A stretch of DNA of 23,799 nt, from positions 1 to 23,799 of IMG/VR virus record IMGVR_UViG_3300032020_000049. One strand, 5' to 3'. The position numbers were made by a program, and so were the translations under genes. Shown here one piece after another: positions 3-23,799 of this stretch (position 1 is the stretch's first letter; every line of letters starts with the position of its first letter). The notes under the pieces are model-generated. The model was not told where the DNA came from and ran no database searches. It was given only the letters and a program-made list of their open reading frames with translations. This stretch comes from a virus.

Positions 3-257
3 GACTTAACTGGATGCTCGGCAAAATTACAGCTAATCGAAAGAGACACGGGAATCGTGATTCTAACTAAAACTGCAACAATATTGAGTCCCCCAACAAA
101 CGGACAAGTGCAATATGACTGGGAAACAGGCGAAACAAAAGTGGAAAAAGACAAATATAAAATAAGATTCGAAATCACATTCAGCGACACAAAATCGCAA
201 AGTTTCCCAGTAGACGACAATCTCTACATAACGTTCGCTAATAAGGAGGGAACTTAA
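3..257 (+). CDS. BppU-N-like baseplate/adhesin domain protein, 5' partial
   Basis: The frame is open from the window edge, so the start lies outside; 84 residues plus stop are visible. It begins DLTGCSAKLQL and contains GQVQYDW followed by YKIRFEITFSD and FPVDD. This is the usual pattern of the immunoglobulin-like N-terminal domain of phage baseplate upper proteins (BppU-N type): a DLTG turn, a YdWt strand, and a final strand carrying fP.d. A GTG at 57 exists but would remove the first strand of the domain, so I read the gene as entering from outside. Its stop overlaps the next start (TAATG at 255-259), and AAGGAGG at 244-250 serves that next gene. Its position just before a neck gene is unusual for a baseplate domain; it may be an Ig-like decoration of the neck or head. 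The family assignment rests on pattern recognition only. Confidence 0.6.
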   Translation, partial: DLTGCSAKLQLIERDTGIVILTKTATILSPPTNGQVQYDWETGETKVEKDKYKIRFEITFSDTKSQSFPVDDNLYITFANKEGT

Positions 258-1417
258 TGGAACTTTTCGAAACAAAACTAGGAAAATGGATTCAAGAAAC
301 AAGCGGAGAACTACACGGCGAAGGCACCAGAGCATACGCCGTAGCGGGTGAAGAAACGGACGTAAACTACACGGCGCAAGCAACCTTACGCCTTGTGAAA
401 GGAACCAAAGCATCCATAATCGGGTTCCACATTTCGTTGCCGACGGAAAAATACGTGGAATTCGTATTAGATTCCGTAACCAATAAAGTGTTACTGGATA
501 AGATAGAAGGAATAACAAGGACAAACATCAAAGAACAAGCATACACAATAAAAGTGAACACCGACTATACATGCGAACTTTCCATAACAATCAACTTGAT
601 AATGTGCAAAATCAATGGGGCAATCGTGATAAAACAAGCTCCGCCGACGGGATATACAGCGGGTAGATACGGGTTTGGACACGACGGCACATTAACTACA
701 GACTATAGCATCTTCAACAAAATATACGTTCAAAAAGCAAACCACTACACAACTGTTTCCACTTTGATCTCTTGTATCCGCTCAGTAGATCCGAAAGAAC
801 TGGTGGGAAAAGACGGAACAGTACAAGACTACTTCGACTATTTAACAACCCTCATTGAACAGTCCAGCAGATTCATAGACGGAGAAACGCAACGAGAAAC
901 AAATTTCTTCGAGGAAGGCGGACTATCGTTGATAGAATACTTTAGCGGAATAGGATCGCCGACGCCCACGGGATTATACGAATTTACAGAACAAGCAGAG
1001 GCGTGGCAAACAAAGGCGGCTTCGCTGTTTCTAACACAACGCCCCGTTTTGAGCATAACAAAAATAGAAGAAAACTCGGCGGAAATCGGTGATGTTGATG
1101 TTTGGACAGAAATAACCAAATACAGATGGTTCACACACGGCGAAATCGTGTTCGCTTCAGGCTCAATTCCTGCTAAAGGAACAAAAAATGTACGAGTAAC
1201 ATACAAGGGCGGATACAACAAAACTCCCATAGACATTCAAATGGCTTGCACGAGGCTGATTGTGAACATGATTCACAAGACAATAAGCGACCGCACAGCA
1301 GCATTCGTGAGTTTCGCAAGACCAACTGCTGTTAATTTTTCCATGCCAGAAGTGCTTACTCCAGACATTAGAGGAGTTCTGTTGAGATACAGACTACTAG
1401 GATTTGGTGAGTTTTAA
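257..1417 (+). CDS. Head-tail connector (gp6-like) fused to N-terminal lectin-like domain
   Basis: This 386-residue protein has two parts. Residues about 1-165 are beta-rich, with the spacing of a LamG/concanavalin-like jelly roll (ELFETKLGKWIQ, YAVAGEETDVNY, GRYGFGHDG). Residues about 190-386 resemble phage gp6-like head-tail connectors: a helical start (QDYFDYLTTLIEQSSRFIDG), a beta region, and the family-typical end VRVTYKGGYNKTPIDIQMAC followed by a long helix. A connector alone is usually 100-200 residues, so about 180 residues are additional. It would sit at the neck under the portal and could display the lectin-like domain as a collar or whisker. An AGGAGG site precedes the ATG. A homing endonuclease gene follows directly at 1418. 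The connector half is fairly secure; the lectin half is inferred from strand pattern. Confidence 0.7.
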   Translation: MELFETKLGKWIQETSGELHGEGTRAYAVAGEETDVNYTAQATLRLVKGTKASIIGFHISLPTEKYVEFVLDSVTNKVLLDKIEGITRTNIKEQAYTIKVNTDYTCELSITINLIMCKINGAIVIKQAPPTGYTAGRYGFGHDGTLTTDYSIFNKIYVQKANHYTTVSTLISCIRSVDPKELVGKDGTVQDYFDYLTTLIEQSSRFIDGETQRETNFFEEGGLSLIEYFSGIGSPTPTGLYEFTEQAEAWQTKAASLFLTQRPVLSITKIEENSAEIGDVDVWTEITKYRWFTHGEIVFASGSIPAKGTKNVRVTYKGGYNKTPIDIQMACTRLIVNMIHKTISDRTAAFVSFARPTAVNFSMPEVLTPDIRGVLLRYRLLGFGEF

Positions 1418-1870: not shown

Positions 1871-2303
1871 GTTACAGCTTCTCAACCTTCTGCAAACGAA
1901 TTGGAGCGTCGAAAAAGACACCACGATTTTCCACCGCAACATGCGTCGAGTTGAAGGGATCCTCACTCAACCCAACGTCATAATCAAAGAAGAAACAGAC
2001 GTGAATAGATGGGACACAGAAGGATCGGGCGAGTGCCTAGCACTCATAACAGTAAAAATCAGGATGCAAGCAAAATCAACAACGAACGAGTCCGTCGAAG
2101 AAACTAAAGAATTGAAGCATAAGTTCATAGAAGAAATCTACGACATTCTCAAAAAGGTTAACAATGGAGACTTGAAAACTCCAGAAGGATGGGAATGGGG
2201 CTACATCACACGTCGAGTGAACGAGGACTTATTTGATGTTGAACCGCCCATGCTCGGAGAAGGTCTCAACATTACGATAGCTTATCAGAGGACAAGCAAA
2301 TGA
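1836..2303 (+). CDS. Putative tail terminator / neck protein
   Basis: This 155-residue protein lies between the connector and the gp10-like gene, where tailed phages encode head or tail completion proteins. It has an N-terminal helix (LEDIELQLLNLLQTNW), an alternating beta middle (CLALITVKIRMQAK), a helix (KHKFIEEIYDILKK) and a final strand (GEGLNITIAYQR). This alpha-beta plan and the ending in a YQ strand resemble tail terminator proteins that cap the tail tube, but no diagnostic motif is visible. The ATG at 1836 lies inside the end of the homing endonuclease gene, so the first dozen residues may have been shaped by that insertion. The stop overlaps the next start (ATGA at 2300). The role is mostly inferred from gene order. 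Confidence 0.5.
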   Translation: MKKDVLNLEDIELQLLNLLQTNWSVEKDTTIFHRNMRRVEGILTQPNVIIKEETDVNRWDTEGSGECLALITVKIRMQAKSTTNESVEETKELKHKFIEEIYDILKKVNNGDLKTPEGWEWGYITRRVNEDLFDVEPPMLGEGLNITIAYQRTSK

Positions 2304-2776
2304 GTTCAATACAAATCCTGACTCCAGACCATGAATTTGTGTTCCAGCAACTTCAACTTATGGGTGAAATGGCTCCAGTCAAGTTGGACATGGTACTGCA
2401 AAGGCTTTGCGCCATCTTGGAAGGCGGCATAAAGAATTTGATTATGTCTGAAACACACGGAACAGGCTTAACCGCCTCAAGCATCGAAACAAGAAAAGAA
2501 GGAGAACTCGAATACGGCGTAGGCTCTTACACGCGCGGAAATATTCTAAGATTCCTCGACGCTGGAACGGGCATCTACAGAAGCGGCAAAGCAATATTCA
2601 TAACTCCCGTCGCTGCCAGAGCGTTGCGTTTTATATCTAAAGAAACGGGAGATCTCGTTTTTGCAAAATATTGCATTGTCCTTGGCATAATTCCTCACAA
2701 TTTCCTTATTCGAGCCGTTTATTCGAGCATTAACGAGTTAGACGCAATATTGAAAGAGGAGATGGAAAAAACATGA
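2300..2776 (+). CDS. HK97 gp10-like tail completion protein
   Basis: This 158-residue protein matches the pattern of HK97 gp10-like proteins: a helical N-terminus (KLDMVLQRLCAILEGG), a central hairpin with a glycine pair (EYGVGSYTRG), then FLDAGTGIY, ITPVAARALRF, FAK and the family-typical C-terminal PHNFLIRAV followed by a helix. In the family this protein works at the head-tail or tail-terminus interface during morphogenesis. It starts by an ATGA overlap with the preceding gene and ends in an ATGA overlap with a 19-codon frame leading to the tail tube gene. Its length is slightly above the typical 110-150. Confidence 0.72.
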   Translation: MSSIQILTPDHEFVFQQLQLMGEMAPVKLDMVLQRLCAILEGGIKNLIMSETHGTGLTASSIETRKEGELEYGVGSYTRGNILRFLDAGTGIYRSGKAIFITPVAARALRFISKETGDLVFAKYCIVLGIIPHNFLIRAVYSSINELDAILKEEMEKT

Positions 2777-2832
2777 TAGAATCACATTCCTTAAATGAAA
2801 AAGGAAAACATAAGGAGGTATTTGAAAAATGA
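2773..2832 (+). CDS. 19-residue coupled leader ORF before tail tube gene
   Basis: A tiny frame (begins MIESHSLNEK, ends VFEK) starts by ATGA overlap with the end of the gp10-like gene (2773-2776) and stops by ATGA overlap with the tail tube start (2829-2832). It fills what would otherwise be the only untranslated gap here, and it contains the strong AAGGAGG of the tail tube gene within its own codons. It may keep ribosomes on the message and pass them to the highly expressed tail tube gene. No protein function is proposed. The double overlap could be chance. Confidence 0.35.
   Translation: MIESHSLNEKGKHKEVFEK
2812..2818 (+). promoter_or_regulatory. Strong Shine-Dalgarno of tail tube gene
   Basis: AAGGAGG lies 10 bases before the ATG at 2829. 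It is one of the best ribosome binding sites in the window, fitting the high copy number needed for the tail tube protein, and it supports that start. Confidence 0.8.
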
Positions 2833-3653
2833 GCATAGCGTATGGAGATAAATACAAAATAAATCGTTTCGCAACCCCAACATACTATGGATTAGGAGGA
2901 ACCGTGATGACAGCAACAATAGATCCAGACGCGGAAATCGCAACTGAAGTCGGCTGCGGCGAAGGAACACGGGCAATCGCATTCCGAAAAATCACAGCCG
3001 TGCGCCCCAAAGTTTCGTGGACTCAAAACGTGCGAAAACTCACAGACTATCTCACAACCTACGCATTGATAACCGCAGAAGGAGCAGTTCCAGCACATAA
3101 CCTAGCACTAGATGAAGGCGGTGGTGGACTGCACTTGTTCACAGATTGCAAAGTAAATACATGCAGAATCACGATTCGCCAAATGGAAAGCATCAAGGCG
3201 GCGTTGGAAGTTCTCGCAAAAGACCGTTCAACCCAAACCACATGGACATTCGTGAAAGCAACGGAAGAAGCAATGTATAAGACAGCACTAACGACATTGA
3301 GCATCGGCGGAACACCAGAAACAAAATGGCAAGAAGTCGAATTCGGAGTCGACAACAACGTGATACAAGAAATTTTAGGCGTTGCAATAAAGCCAACAGA
3401 AGTCGGCGAACGCCAAGCTCTCTACAGCGGACACATCATAAGGGCGGTGGCACAAGCAAGCCTAGTGTCAGACGTTATTGCTGGAACACCAAAAACAATC
3501 GAGATAGCTCTAACGGACAATGCAACAACTCCAGTAACTAAAACTTTCACTTTCGCCAACGCAGAACTGAGGCGCTCGCAAGTGCAAGCAAGAGGATTGG
3601 ACATGGTGATCGAACGCATCGAATGGGAAGCAAAAACGATGGTGATAACGTAA
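2829..3653 (+). CDS. Major tail tube protein
   Basis: This 274-residue beta-rich protein lies between the tail completion gene and the tail chaperone, the normal place of the siphovirus major tail protein. Its N-terminal part has a fixed-pattern beta region (KITAVRPKVSW), followed by a long loop, a sheet with a helix (MESIKAALEVLAK), and a C-terminal beta domain (KTIEIALTDN, VTKTFTFANAELR). Length and plan fit tail tube proteins, which form stacked hexamer rings. It has the strong AAGGAGG upstream, as expected for an abundant structural protein. Its stop overlaps the next ATG (TAATG at 3651). No catalytic motif is present. The call rests on position, size and fold pattern. Confidence 0.72.
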   Translation: MSIAYGDKYKINRFATPTYYGLGGTVMTATIDPDAEIATEVGCGEGTRAIAFRKITAVRPKVSWTQNVRKLTDYLTTYALITAEGAVPAHNLALDEGGGGLHLFTDCKVNTCRITIRQMESIKAALEVLAKDRSTQTTWTFVKATEEAMYKTALTTLSIGGTPETKWQEVEFGVDNNVIQEILGVAIKPTEVGERQALYSGHIIRAVAQASLVSDVIAGTPKTIEIALTDNATTPVTKTFTFANAELRRSQVQARGLDMVIERIEWEAKTMVIT

Positions 3654-4039
3654 TGAAAATAAAATTCACCGTCGTCAAAGGCAAAACTTCCACCCCATCA
3701 GAAATCAGCATCGGTGAAGACTGGAAACCTGAAGTCTACGGCGAATACGAAGTTAAGGAACTAACGGCGCAAGACGGAATCGACGCGTTAAACGAACTCG
3801 TGTCGGAACTCACCGAACCCGAACGCATAACGCCAGCAGTATACAAACAAAAACTGTTGCAAAAAGCAGTAATCCACAACGGCAAAACATTCAAAATTGA
3901 AAACTTCAGTCAAATCCCAAATAAACTCTACAACATGTTGCTCGCAGCAAACGAACGATTAAACAACATCAGCGACGAAGAAGCCCGTTTTTTACTGTCG
4001 CCGTCTTCCTCAAACAACCCGTCTTCCATCCCGCCATAA
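3653..4039 (+). CDS. Tail assembly chaperone, unshifted product (gpG-like)
   Basis: The ATG at 3653 overlaps the tail tube stop and gives a 128-residue acidic protein (starts MKIKFTVVKG, ends in a serine/proline-rich tail). An in-frame start 30 bases upstream would lie inside the tail tube gene and is unlikely. Gene order (tail tube, this gene, tape measure) is that of the G/GT tail assembly chaperone pair of lambda-like phages, which coats the tape measure before tube polymerisation. Residues 33-113 (EYEVKELTAQDGIDALNELV onward) look like the typical helical chaperone body. The serine/proline tail after residue 114 is low-complexity, as expected if it is only the read-on after a missed frameshift. 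See the slip site and fused product. Confidence 0.75.
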   Translation: MKIKFTVVKGKTSTPSEISIGEDWKPEVYGEYEVKELTAQDGIDALNELVSELTEPERITPAVYKQKLLQKAVIHNGKTFKIENFSQIPNKLYNMLLAANERLNNISDEEARFLLSPSSSNNPSSIPP

Positions 4040-4158
4040 AACTGTACATCGCCACTAAAGAATTGGGATTGCAAATGGATCCCCAAAAAATTTCCCTGCG
4101 GTTATTTACGCAGTTAGAAAGGATAAATGAAGCGAGGAAAATGAAATGGCAGACTTAA
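3653..4158 (+). CDS. Tail assembly chaperone, -1 frameshift fusion (gpGT-like)
   Basis: If ribosomes slip back one base at TTTTTTA (3988-3994), translation leaves the first frame after residue 114 and continues from 3994 in the -1 frame for 54 codons to a TAA at 4156-4158, giving about 168 residues. The added part reads like real protein (FLKQPVFHPAIKLYIATKEL, then LRLFTQLERINEARK), with a helical C-terminus. It fills the 106 bases between the unshifted stop and the tape measure start that no other frame explains. It ends 13 bases inside the tape measure gene, the arrangement known for G/GT pairs. The T part binds tail tube subunits in lambda; the same role is inferred here. Confidence 0.78.
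3988..3994 (+). promoter_or_regulatory. Programmed -1 ribosomal frameshift site
   Basis: The heptamer T TTT TTA is in the correct phase (zero-frame codons TTT at 3989 and TTA at 3992). It matches the X XXY YYZ rule for tandem slippage, being the U UUU UUA used in several viral frameshifts. The zero-frame stop is 43 bases downstream. I do not see a strong hairpin or Shine-Dalgarno stimulator nearby by eye. Confidence 0.8.
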
Positions 4159-5084
4159 CATACAGACTCGTATTACGCGCCACATTCGAAGGACGCGAAC
4201 AACTAGACCAAGCTGTGCAGGAATTGGAGAAAATCCAGTTTCAAGGTGCGAAAGTAGGTGTAAGCGTCCAACAAGGAGGAGCACGAGCGGGTGAGGGACT
4301 GCAAGGCATCGCCCGCAGTGCGATGAGTATTGGATTTATGTTCAACATGGTCGAATCCGCTTGGATGCGACAGACGATGGCTTCGATAATGGCTGCGAAC
4401 GCTCAAGACCGCTACAACAGCGCAGTCGCCCGCTTTGGTGTAAAGAGTGAAGAAGCACAGCGGGCAGCGAGACAGTTGACTCAGGAAATGCAGTATCTCG
4501 ATGCCGCTAACATGCGAGCAAACGTGAGCATGGGACTCATGGCAGGAACGCTTCTCATTTCAACTGACCTTTTAAAGAAAGAAAGTTGGGCGACAATAGC
4601 TTCAACAGCATCTAAAACTTACCACACTATAGCCACAAAACTTAACACGATTGCAACGGGTGAAAACATACTAACGAAGATAGCACATAAAGCTGTCACA
4701 ATAGCGTCCACAGCCATAGAGTGGTTAGAAAACGCGGCTTTACAAGCACAAATAATTCTTAGAGGAACGTTAAGTATGGGACTCTTAGTTCCCGCAATGA
4801 TCGTGGGAGCCGCAGCCGCAGCGGGAATCGCTGGATATTCCATGGGACAATCGAAACAAGAAGGCGGACACATTCCACAGACAGGCATGTATCTACTACA
4901 CGAAGGTGAATACGTGCTTCCAAAAACAAACATGGGAACAAGCATTCAAACAACAAGTTTGGAAACATCGAAAGTCGAAGTGTTCAGCATCCAATCAGAC
5001 ATTCACGTTGAAACCGACCTTGAACGGGCATTAACAATTCAGAACAAGAAAATAGTAAGCGAATGGAAGAGGATGCGCCCATGA
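4146..5084 (+). CDS. Tape measure protein (short)
   Basis: This 312-residue protein directly follows the tail chaperone, the normal place of the tape measure, and overlaps its frameshifted end. It is helical in the first 180 residues, with alanine- and glutamine-rich segments (NSAVARFGVKSEEAQRAARQ). A hydrophobic glycine/alanine-rich stretch follows near residues 205-235 (LLVPAMIVGAAAAAGIAGY). The C-terminus has the phage tape-measure signature GGHIPQTGMYLLHEGEYVLP, then a beta segment and a final helix. The length is at the low end for the family. At about 0.15 nm per residue it would set a tail of roughly 45-47 nm, unless the next protein contributes. It ends by ATGA overlap with the repeat protein. 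Confidence 0.75.
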   Translation: MADLTYRLVLRATFEGREQLDQAVQELEKIQFQGAKVGVSVQQGGARAGEGLQGIARSAMSIGFMFNMVESAWMRQTMASIMAANAQDRYNSAVARFGVKSEEAQRAARQLTQEMQYLDAANMRANVSMGLMAGTLLISTDLLKKESWATIASTASKTYHTIATKLNTIATGENILTKIAHKAVTIASTAIEWLENAALQAQIILRGTLSMGLLVPAMIVGAAAAAGIAGYSMGQSKQEGGHIPQTGMYLLHEGEYVLPKTNMGTSIQTTSLETSKVEVFSIQSDIHVETDLERALTIQNKKIVSEWKRMRP

Positions 5085-6856
5085 GAAAACTTCCACGACA
5101 CATCCACTATTTAGAAGAATCTTCCCCAGTCTATCAGTCCATAACTTCACAAGACTGGATTCCACAAATTGACTGGGCAAAATTAGCAACCACAATACAG
5201 GACACAATAACCGCTGCAGGAGCATGGATAACCAGCGTACTAAAAACCATTTATGACGCTGGAGCCGTAGCGTGGACGACACTTGCAACAGCCGTTCAGA
5301 ATACGATAACCGCTGCAGGTGCATGGATAGGCACAGTCGTCGAAACGATAAAGACTCTTGGCAAAGTGGCATGGGATGTACTAACAACAACTTTACAAAA
5401 CACGATAAATGCCGCTGGAGCGTGGATAGGTACAGTCATTGAAACAATAAAAATTGCTGGAGCTGTGGCATGGGCACATCTTGCAGCGGCTTTACAAACC
5501 ATAATAAATAATGCTGCTGCGTGGATTGGAACCGTAGTTGAAACCATAAAAACCGCAGGAAAAGTTGCGTGGGATGTGTTGACAACAACCCTTCAAACCA
5601 CGATAAATGCCGCTGGGGCGTGGATTGGATCTGTTATTGAAACAATAAAAATTGCTGGAAACGTGGCTTGGGCAGTATTATCGACATCCGTACAAAACAT
5701 AATAAATACTGCAGGAGCGTGGATCGGCACAATTATTGAAAGCATAAAGACTGCTGGCGCAGTTGCAACCACATATCTGTCGGGCGTTATTCAGTCAGCA
5801 CAAATGGCATTATCTAGTTTCGCAGACGGCTTCTTCGCAGGAGCCAGTGGACTAGCAAAGTTTGTAACCGACTTTTTCAGTGGCGCAACGGGTAGAGCCA
5901 AATTTGCAAACGACTTAGCATTGCCATTCACAAAACTCGAAGCTGTCCCATACAAACTTCCCACTTCCGCATACAACTACATCGTGAATCCGAGCTACGA
6001 ATATGGTACTTGGGGCGGAAGCGAAACGCAAAGTGAAGATTATGCCAAATTCGGCAAGTATTCTGCGAAAATCGTGGCGTCAGGCGCAACGCTATCTAGT
6101 GGATATTCAAACTTCGTAAATGTACGAGGACTATCAACCATAACTGTTTCTGTGTGGCTTAAAATAACAAGTTATGTTTCGGGAAATTTAGCTACAAGAA
6201 TATATTATTACAATTCCGCCAAAACGGAACTTGGTTGGGAATGGAGTGGTTCATTAGGTGCCATTACAGATTGGACACGAGTGGAAATAACGAAAACGTC
6301 TTTTCCAGCGAACACCTGTTTCATTCGTGTCTGTTTTCTTGCCGCCCTTACTCCAATCTTCACAGGATACGTAGATGGCTGGCAATTCCACGCGGGCGAC
6401 CAGATTCCAGCGTTCCAAGACTTCACCGCATACAGTTTCAACTGGTGCCCCGAAAAGATAGAGACTTCTCTCGCAACTGATACGTCATGGTCAAGCGATA
6501 CATGGACGACCGTATTAACGTTGCCTTTCGATTGTGATTCCACTATGTTGTGTTTGGTTTTCGTCTATGCTCAAAGCCAAGTCGTAAGACCGACAGAAGG
6601 CATAGCCATTGCATATTTTAGACTTCTTTTAGACGATAGTGAAATGCCCATAACTAATGGATGGATTGGTTCAAATCAATGTCACGCAAATCAACAATTA
6701 ACAGGAGATTACAGTTTACATACAATTGCAATAGTAGTCAAAGGCACACACAACATAAAACTACAAATGAAATGTTATGCCTCGTCTATGATAGTTTATG
6801 CCTACAATAGAAGGCTTTCCGTTTTAAAAGGCTTCTACAACGGAGGCACAACCTAA
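5081..6856 (+). CDS. Tail tip / tail-length protein with 33-residue repeats and C-terminal binding domain
   Basis: I place the start at the ATG at 5081, which overlaps the tape measure stop (ATGA); an ATG at 5063 is in frame but deeper in the overlap. The 591-residue product has three parts. Residues 32-229 are six tandem 33-residue repeats with consensus AAGAWIGTVxETIKxAGxVA, followed by a degenerate seventh. Then comes a hydrophobic alanine/phenylalanine-rich linker. Residues about 300-445 form a beta domain of galactose-binding/CBM type (NPSYEYGTWGG, then YAKFGKYSAKI, and YVDGWQF at its end), followed by about 145 beta-rich residues. The repeat period of 3 x 11 with conserved Trp resembles the repeat habit of tape measure proteins. 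It may be a distal tail or tip component that carries the receptor-binding domain. Role inferred from order and domains. Confidence 0.6.
   Translation: MRKLPRHIHYLEESSPVYQSITSQDWIPQIDWAKLATTIQDTITAAGAWITSVLKTIYDAGAVAWTTLATAVQNTITAAGAWIGTVVETIKTLGKVAWDVLTTTLQNTINAAGAWIGTVIETIKIAGAVAWAHLAAALQTIINNAAAWIGTVVETIKTAGKVAWDVLTTTLQTTINAAGAWIGSVIETIKIAGNVAWAVLSTSVQNIINTAGAWIGTIIESIKTAGAVATTYLSGVIQSAQMALSSFADGFFAGASGLAKFVTDFFSGATGRAKFANDLALPFTKLEAVPYKLPTSAYNYIVNPSYEYGTWGGSETQSEDYAKFGKYSAKIVASGATLSSGYSNFVNVRGLSTITVSVWLKITSYVSGNLATRIYYYNSAKTELGWEWSGSLGAITDWTRVEITKTSFPANTCFIRVCFLAALTPIFTGYVDGWQFHAGDQIPAFQDFTAYSFNWCPEKIETSLATDTSWSSDTWTTVLTLPFDCDSTMLCLVFVYAQSQVVRPTEGIAIAYFRLLLDDSEMPITNGWIGSNQCHANQQLTGDYSLHTIAIVVKGTHNIKLQMKCYASSMIVYAYNRRLSVLKGFYNGGTT
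5174..5767 (+). repeat. Six tandem 99-bp in-frame repeats (33 residues each)
   Basis: Units start at 5174, 5273, 5372, 5471, 5570 and 5669, each beginning with a Trp codon, and the second Trp falls at repeat position 18 (AAGAWIG). DNA identity is partial with many synonymous changes, so the copies are old or selected at protein level. A degenerate seventh unit follows from 5768. Units 3 and 5 are especially alike (WDVLTTTLQ start), as are units 2, 4 and 6 in part, which hints at duplication of a two-unit block. Confidence 0.9.
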
Positions 6857-23210: not shown

Positions 23211-23799
23211 ATGATAAAAACAAAATGTGATTGTTGCAAAAAACGAATTCTAGTCAGTCCACATCATTACAAAAAATATAAACATCATTTTTGTTCTAGA
23301 AGCTGTTTTATTAATAAACATCCACTAAAAAAGACCAAACCGAGCAAAGAGGAACTATATAAACTACATTGGATAAAACAAAAATCTATAGCTGAAATTG
23401 CTCCGATATTTAACGTAGCAAGAATAACGATTAATCGATGGATGAAAGAGTATGGAATAAAATGGCGCAACAGTTCACAAGATATGAAACGCCAATTCAG
23501 ATTGGAGATAAGAGACAGATACAAAACAACACAAGCTGCTCATAAAGCTTGCAAAGGAAAACCAAATCCTAGATATAAAAAACAGCGATTAAATCCAACA
23601 AAATCAGAACAATACTTCATTAATTTATGTGAGCAATTAAGTTTGCCTTTTGAATATTGTGGTAATGGTGGAACAATAATAAATGGTCTAAACCCAGATT
23701 TTGTTCATTTGACAGAAAAAAAGATTATAGAAACTTATACTGGGCATAGAGCCTCATATAAAAAGAAACGAATAGAAACCTACAAGCAAGTTGGTTACG
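23211..23799 (+). CDS. EDxHD/Vsr-type homing endonuclease, 3' partial
   Basis: The gene starts at the base after the MuF stop and is cut by the window edge after 196 codons. Order of parts: a zinc knuckle (KCDCCKK, HHFCSRSC), a helix-turn-helix (KSIAEIAPIFNVARITINRW), a basic linker with a short repeat of charged residues, and a nuclease domain. The nuclease domain has SEQYFINLCEQL, FEYCGNGGTIINGLNPDF, then KKIIETYTGHRASYKKKR and YKQVGY, the pattern of Vsr-like (I-Bth0305I-type) homing endonucleases. Catalytic Glu, Asp, Glu and His positions appear intact. Its A+T content is higher than that of the portal and MuF genes, as expected of a mobile gene. Confidence 0.82.
   Translation, partial: MIKTKCDCCKKRILVSPHHYKKYKHHFCSRSCFINKHPLKKTKPSKEELYKLHWIKQKSIAEIAPIFNVARITINRWMKEYGIKWRNSSQDMKRQFRLEIRDRYKTTQAAHKACKGKPNPRYKKQRLNPTKSEQYFINLCEQLSLPFEYCGNGGTIINGLNPDFVHLTEKKIIETYTGHRASYKKKRIETYKQVGY

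Follow-up and report, generated by a model that had tools for sequence, protein, structure and literature searches.

The region between the tail tube gene and the probable tape measure gene of the viral record IMGVR_UViG_3300032020_000049, of which we analyzed a stretch of 23,799 nucleotides (the window), raises the question of whether a short gene located there is read in one frame or in two. The initial annotation proposed that a programmed −1 frameshift produces a G/GT pair of tail chaperones at this locus. Reading from the ATG at 3653, which overlaps the stop codon of the tail tube gene (TAATG), the zero frame of G continues for 128 codons to a TAA at 4037-4039 (ORF 3653-4039), and it reads the slippery heptamer T_TTT_TTA at 3988-3994 (plus strand) as CGT TTT TTA, i.e., in the X_XXY_YYZ phase, which is the exact slippage phase that the annotation had claimed. 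Beyond this site, the −1 frame (3994-4155) stays open for 54 codons up to a TAA stop at 4156-4158, giving an extension, T, with the translation TVAVFLKQPVFHPAIKLYIATKELGLQMDPQKISLRLFTQLERINEARKMKWQT (54 aa), and it ends 13 nt inside the downstream ORF starting at 4146. We found no other plus-strand ORF of at least 50 aa that fills the gap at 4040-4145, bearing out the view that the −1 frame occupies an otherwise unexplained stretch, and in the window no ATG, GTG or TTG precedes the slip site in the −1 frame. Fused, G and T give a protein (GT) of 168 aa, 19.4 kDa and pI 8.7.

Table 1. Tail module features in the window, including the proposed recoded gene
Feature	Position	Strand	Basis or remark
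Head-tail adaptor	257..1417	+	phrog_442, E 1.2e-12
Neck / tail completion protein	2300..2776	+	phrog_5, E 3.1e-4
Tail tube protein, upstream neighbor	2829..3653	+	PF18906, E 1.9e-10; phrog_290, E 1.4e-12
Gene G, predicted short tail assembly chaperone (128 aa, 14.4 kDa, pI 5.3)	3653..4039	+	zero frame; synteny; AF2 model; VIA-align to 2OB9
Slippery heptamer T_TTT_TTA	3988..3994	+	same sequence and same phase in both G001 and G002
T extension, 54 codons and stop	3994..4158	+	−1 frame; lacks its own start codon
Dual-coded stretch (C-terminal tail of G in the zero frame, beginning of T)	3995..4039	+	substitution pattern versus G001
Probable tape measure protein, downstream neighbor	4146..5084	+	position and C-terminal motif; first 13 nt shared with T
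Repeat-rich second tape-measure-like or tail fiber-like protein	5063..6856	+	phrog_1272, E 3.4e-12

In the window alone, an open frame of the length of T was kept in 7.5% of dinucleotide shuffles, and an equally long open frame followed from 5.9% of the −1 starts within genes. The sequence TTTTTTA occurs 15 times in the window, with 16.7 occurrences expected, and is not enriched. Since shuffles keep the frame open this often and the heptamer is no commoner than expected, the open frame and heptamer of the window by themselves are weak, i.e., suggestive, evidence, and it is the openness of so many shuffles that speaks for a reading in which the −1 ORF arose by chance and 4040-4145 is a non-coding spacer.

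Our comparison set consisted of three genomes: the window, a close relative identified by a protein-guided scan of IMG/VR (G001; IMGVR_UViG_3300032020_000006, 50,859 bp) and a distant relative identified by a scan with the major capsid protein, MCP (G002; IMGVR_UViG_3300032053_000154, 44,106 bp), with tail tube proteins 90% and 45% identical to that of the window, respectively. Only G001 emerged from single-sequence scans, in which the fused protein, the tail tube and a core stretch of the portal were the queries, and from alignment scans based on the portal and on the neck protein, and later scans with the portal and the fused protein found nothing beyond these two genomes. Both ends of the G001 contig run into one repeat-rich tail gene, so this genome is probably circular or circularly permuted, and the window would represent roughly half of a G001-like genome.

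The comparison with these relatives, which had been set out beforehand, showed that both of them keep the slip site, an open −1 frame and conserved −1 residues; none of the three opposite outcomes (loss of the site, an interrupted frame, a lack of conservation) was found. The 506-bp region of G001 aligns with the window without gaps, has an identical heptamer and both frames intact, and encodes a T protein 93% identical to that of the window. Of the codons changed by the 13 substitutions in the T region, 6/10 are synonymous in the −1 frame, compared with 2/11 and 1/12 in the other two forward frames, a −1-frame level that random placement of the same substitutions reaches in 0.085% of trials (P = 0.00085). 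Within the 45-nt stretch read in both frames, where four substitutions separate the two genomes, the −1 frame has 3/4 synonymous changed codons and the zero frame 1/4. In G002, the identical heptamer lies in the same phase, with the zero frame ending after 4 more codons rather than the 14 of the window, and T aligns with that of the window without gaps at 23/52 identities (about 44-45%). The score of this alignment is 121, against a shuffle maximum of 40 and scores of 50-57 for the other two forward frames, and the T of G002 overlaps the next gene by 10 nt. Furthermore, across the surveyed ORFs of at least 100 aa in the three genomes (~39,000 codons), an in-phase T TTT TTA occurs once per genome and always at this junction, removing chance as an explanation. 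The conservation of T in a distant relative, in a gapless and frame-specific alignment, and the excess of synonymous changes in the −1 frame versus G001 refute the chance ORF, to which we assign a negligible probability, and confirm that the 54 open codons are protein-like.

Having established that T is coding, we considered how it is translated. As in the window, no ATG, GTG or TTG lies upstream of T in the −1 frame of G001, which becomes open just 24 nt ahead of the site. Because the −1 frame has no upstream start of its own in these two genomes, frameshifting appears to be the simplest way to translate T. A small T protein in its own right, translated from a separate start by ribosomes that re-initiate after terminating G, is very unlikely: the single ATG in the −1 frame of G002, 60 nt upstream of the slip site, and the GTG start annotated for the equivalent gene (gp48) of the virus HHTV-2 would suit it, whereas the window and G001 offer no such codon, the first usable start would drop the most conserved part of T (LKQPxxHPAI), and the identical heptamer in three genomes would be left unexplained. 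We also regard as very unlikely that RNA polymerase slips on the T6 run and adds one U to some transcripts, with GT being made from the edited mRNA. All three genomes carry this run, and the product would be nearly the same GT; however, what they conserve is a T6 with an A behind it, placed in the codon phase that tandem tRNA slippage requires, transcriptional slippage usually needs longer A/T runs than this short one, and tail chaperones otherwise use ribosomal slippage. Finally, homopolymer errors are common in some sequencing methods, and with one more T the gene would be a single fused ORF, but the same T6 recurs in three records whose genomes clearly differ, and real tail chaperones show exactly this two-frame layout, making an assembly or sequencing error highly improbable.

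The assignment of G as a tail chaperone draws on the gene order and on its predicted fold, which agree and support the G/GT pair proposed by the initial annotation. The order tube, G/GT, tape measure is common to the window, G001 and G002, and also to HVTV-1 and HHTV-2. We modeled G and T as separate chains. Among solved structures, the AlphaFold2 model of G (mean pLDDT 81, pTM 0.69) comes closest to the HK97 tail assembly chaperone 2OB9 (VIA-align Z 7.1 over 82 residues at 3.5 A, 8% identity; E 2.2 with Foldseek alone), followed by YqbN 3KLU (Z 5.4), and a search of a viral structure library returned many tail assembly chaperones, including those of Mu (FS-gp41) and HCTV-1, all at E > 0.001. 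With Z under 8 and Foldseek E-values this weak (above 0.001), we regard a predicted fold of G nearest to the HK97 chaperone as supportive, not as proof. The T model was poor (pLDDT 58). Neither G nor T matched a family in Pfam or NCBIfam, the sole named PHROG match was not significant, and a sequence search of the PDB returned nothing significant; known G/GT pairs likewise share low sequence similarity among themselves (PMC5009743).

With the site, its phase, the conserved −1 coding, the gene order and the chaperone-like predicted fold of G established in this analysis, we consider it very likely that the locus between tail tube and tape measure makes a pair of tail chaperones, G and GT, by a −1 frameshift. 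The region 3653-4158 would then be one recoded gene, in which most ribosomes translate G and stop at 4039, and in which a minority move back by one base at T_TTT_TTA while tRNA-Phe occupies TTT and tRNA-Leu occupies TTA. We infer that the slipped ribosomes read on in the −1 frame and yield GT with a basic, probably helical T domain of 54 residues. By analogy with gpG/gpGT of phage lambda (PMC5009743), the tape measure protein would be covered by many copies of G and few of GT as a long tail is assembled, and T would bring in the tail tube subunits. The slipping would be carried out by archaeal ribosomes, since the virus most likely infects an archaeon.

Phage lambda and related pairs have the same layout as the window, with an A/G-rich slip site and a bacterial host, and we found no family-profile similarity to them. 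In these pairs, −1 slippage at a low level close to the end of G appends the T domain ahead of the tape measure gene (PMC5009743). Rfam matched nothing in the window. By eye, no clear Shine-Dalgarno sequence was seen upstream of the slip site, and the 60-135 nt after the site folded no better than shuffles in either the window or G001, using a program that excludes pseudoknots. A downstream structure or an upstream Shine-Dalgarno sequence is common at −1 frameshift sites and is not universal, so neither is defining. The gag-pol slip site of HIV-1 has a downstream stem-loop, whereas none was seen in the window. The HIV-1 site, U_UUU_UUA, comes from an unrelated virus and gene and is the identical heptamer; in E. 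coli, ribosomes shift on it less readily than on A_AAA_AAG (PMC5009743).

Frameshifting of the G/GT type is common among long-tailed phages, and it has already been predicted for the haloviruses HVTV-1 and HCTV-1/2/5 (PMC5009743, PMC8211752) and annotated as such in HVTV-1, so tandem slippage for G/GT in archaea is not the novelty that the initial annotation implied. The chaperones of HVTV-1 (gp129/gp130) and HCTV-5 (gp128/gp129), both Druskaviridae, lie in the same order between tube and tape measure; they differ from the window in the slip site, G_GGA_AAG rather than T_TTT_TTA, and in a T that is much longer and has no significant sequence similarity to ours. A joined GT product is annotated in HVTV-1. 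Both of these viruses infect archaea, whereas the host of the window is only likely to be archaeal. A resemblance between our T and halovirus T domains that is plausible by eye (AIKLYIATKELGL versus AVEMLLTKEVGL) was not significant, and homology is therefore not claimed. Published halovirus slip sites are A/G-rich, and U_UUU_UUA is not listed for HVTV-1 or HCTV-1/2/5 (PMC5009743, PMC8211752). What is new here is the virus lineage together with a U_UUU_UUA (HIV-type) site that has no detectable downstream stem-loop. To our knowledge, this is the first candidate U_UUU_UUA site that would be read by archaeal ribosomes. Predicted G/GT frameshifting is thereby extended to a tailed-virus lineage without a close relative in a phage collection of 50,697 records, and this extension probably reaches archaea outside the haloarchaea. 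Standard gene callers would miss the fused GT in all three genomes, and its recognition would help to identify the tail modules of such viruses.

In HHTV-2 (Saparoviridae), which shares the gene order of the window, gp47 and gp48 are annotated as two separate genes with the junction GAG GAA AAC TGA and no T6, and profile comparison found no homology between G and gp47. Examination of this junction (NC_021340 31056-31076) identified a −1 frame resembling the T domain of HVTV-1 (49% over 51 aa); the resemblance starts at GAG GAA AAC TGA, 18 nt before the GTG of gp48, and a contig related to HHTV-2 (L018:14346-14412) keeps the −1 residues GKLRAAVRR, with GTA replacing the GTG. An unannotated frameshift, at a site of non-canonical sequence, probably yields GT in HHTV-2 as well.

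That the virus is probably archaeal, as initially annotated, is favored by several genes and is likely, not proven. The window encodes an HTH_45 / Sso10a-like winged helix of archaeal type and a XerA-like integrase, an Hjc-type resolvase and a family B DNA polymerase occur in its relatives, and two of the Pfam families among this host evidence occurred mainly in archaeal control genomes, and also in Thermotoga. The nearest match to the MCP of the window in the phage collection is that of HHTV-2 (25%), and the matches of the G001 polymerase in this collection are haloviruses and Salinibacter phages. Two scans of genome contigs, with the portal and the terminase, found no provirus or host genome, and as these scans used few patterns this result is weak evidence.

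Archaeal frame maintenance could be tested with this site, since slippage on U-rich sequences depends on the modification of tRNA-Phe at position 37. This modification differs among archaea (PMC7761594); where tRNA-Phe carries wyosine derivatives, −1 slippage is prevented, and in Haloferax volcanii this position bears m1G alone (PMC7761594). We speculate, with considerable doubt, that at this U-rich, HIV-type site without a structural stimulator the G:GT ratio, and hence tail assembly, may be set by whether the tRNA-Phe of the host carries m1G or wyosine derivatives at position 37. If true, tRNA modification would be a host factor for an archaeal virus.

The gene that T overlaps at its end is probably the tape measure gene, as had been proposed. 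Its product has no family match at E < 0.001, and it carries near its C-terminus the motif GGxIPxTGxYLLHxGExVLP, with a similar motif present in the annotated tape measure of HHTV-2. The two close genomes differ in the length of this protein, which has 312 aa in the window (4146-5084) and 478 aa in G001 (L002:6494-7930), the extra length consisting of repeated GGxVEKEGxYHLHTGExVLSKES units near the C-terminus. The adjoining repeat-rich tail protein, with 99-bp tandem repeats at 5303-5757, has 597 aa in the window (5063-6856) versus at least 1,500 aa in G001, where the contig breaks inside the gene (coordinates there, L002:7909-10486 and L006:17960-19993). The proteins neighboring it are 83-94% identical between the window and G001, and its shorter form in the window is either a true difference in length or a collapse of repeats during assembly of the window. 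We also observed a free-standing LAGLIDADG endonuclease (weak Pfam match) at 1418-1870, flanked by the head-tail adaptor gene and the connector gene that follows; its counterpart in G001 (L002:4722-5180) sits before the tail tube gene, and because its position differs between two otherwise collinear genomes, it is read as a mobile insertion. Another mobile endonuclease may be encoded at 23211-23799 by a partial ORF that has a zinc-finger-like N-terminal part and a G001 relative (L006:1197-1694) and that runs off the end of the contig.
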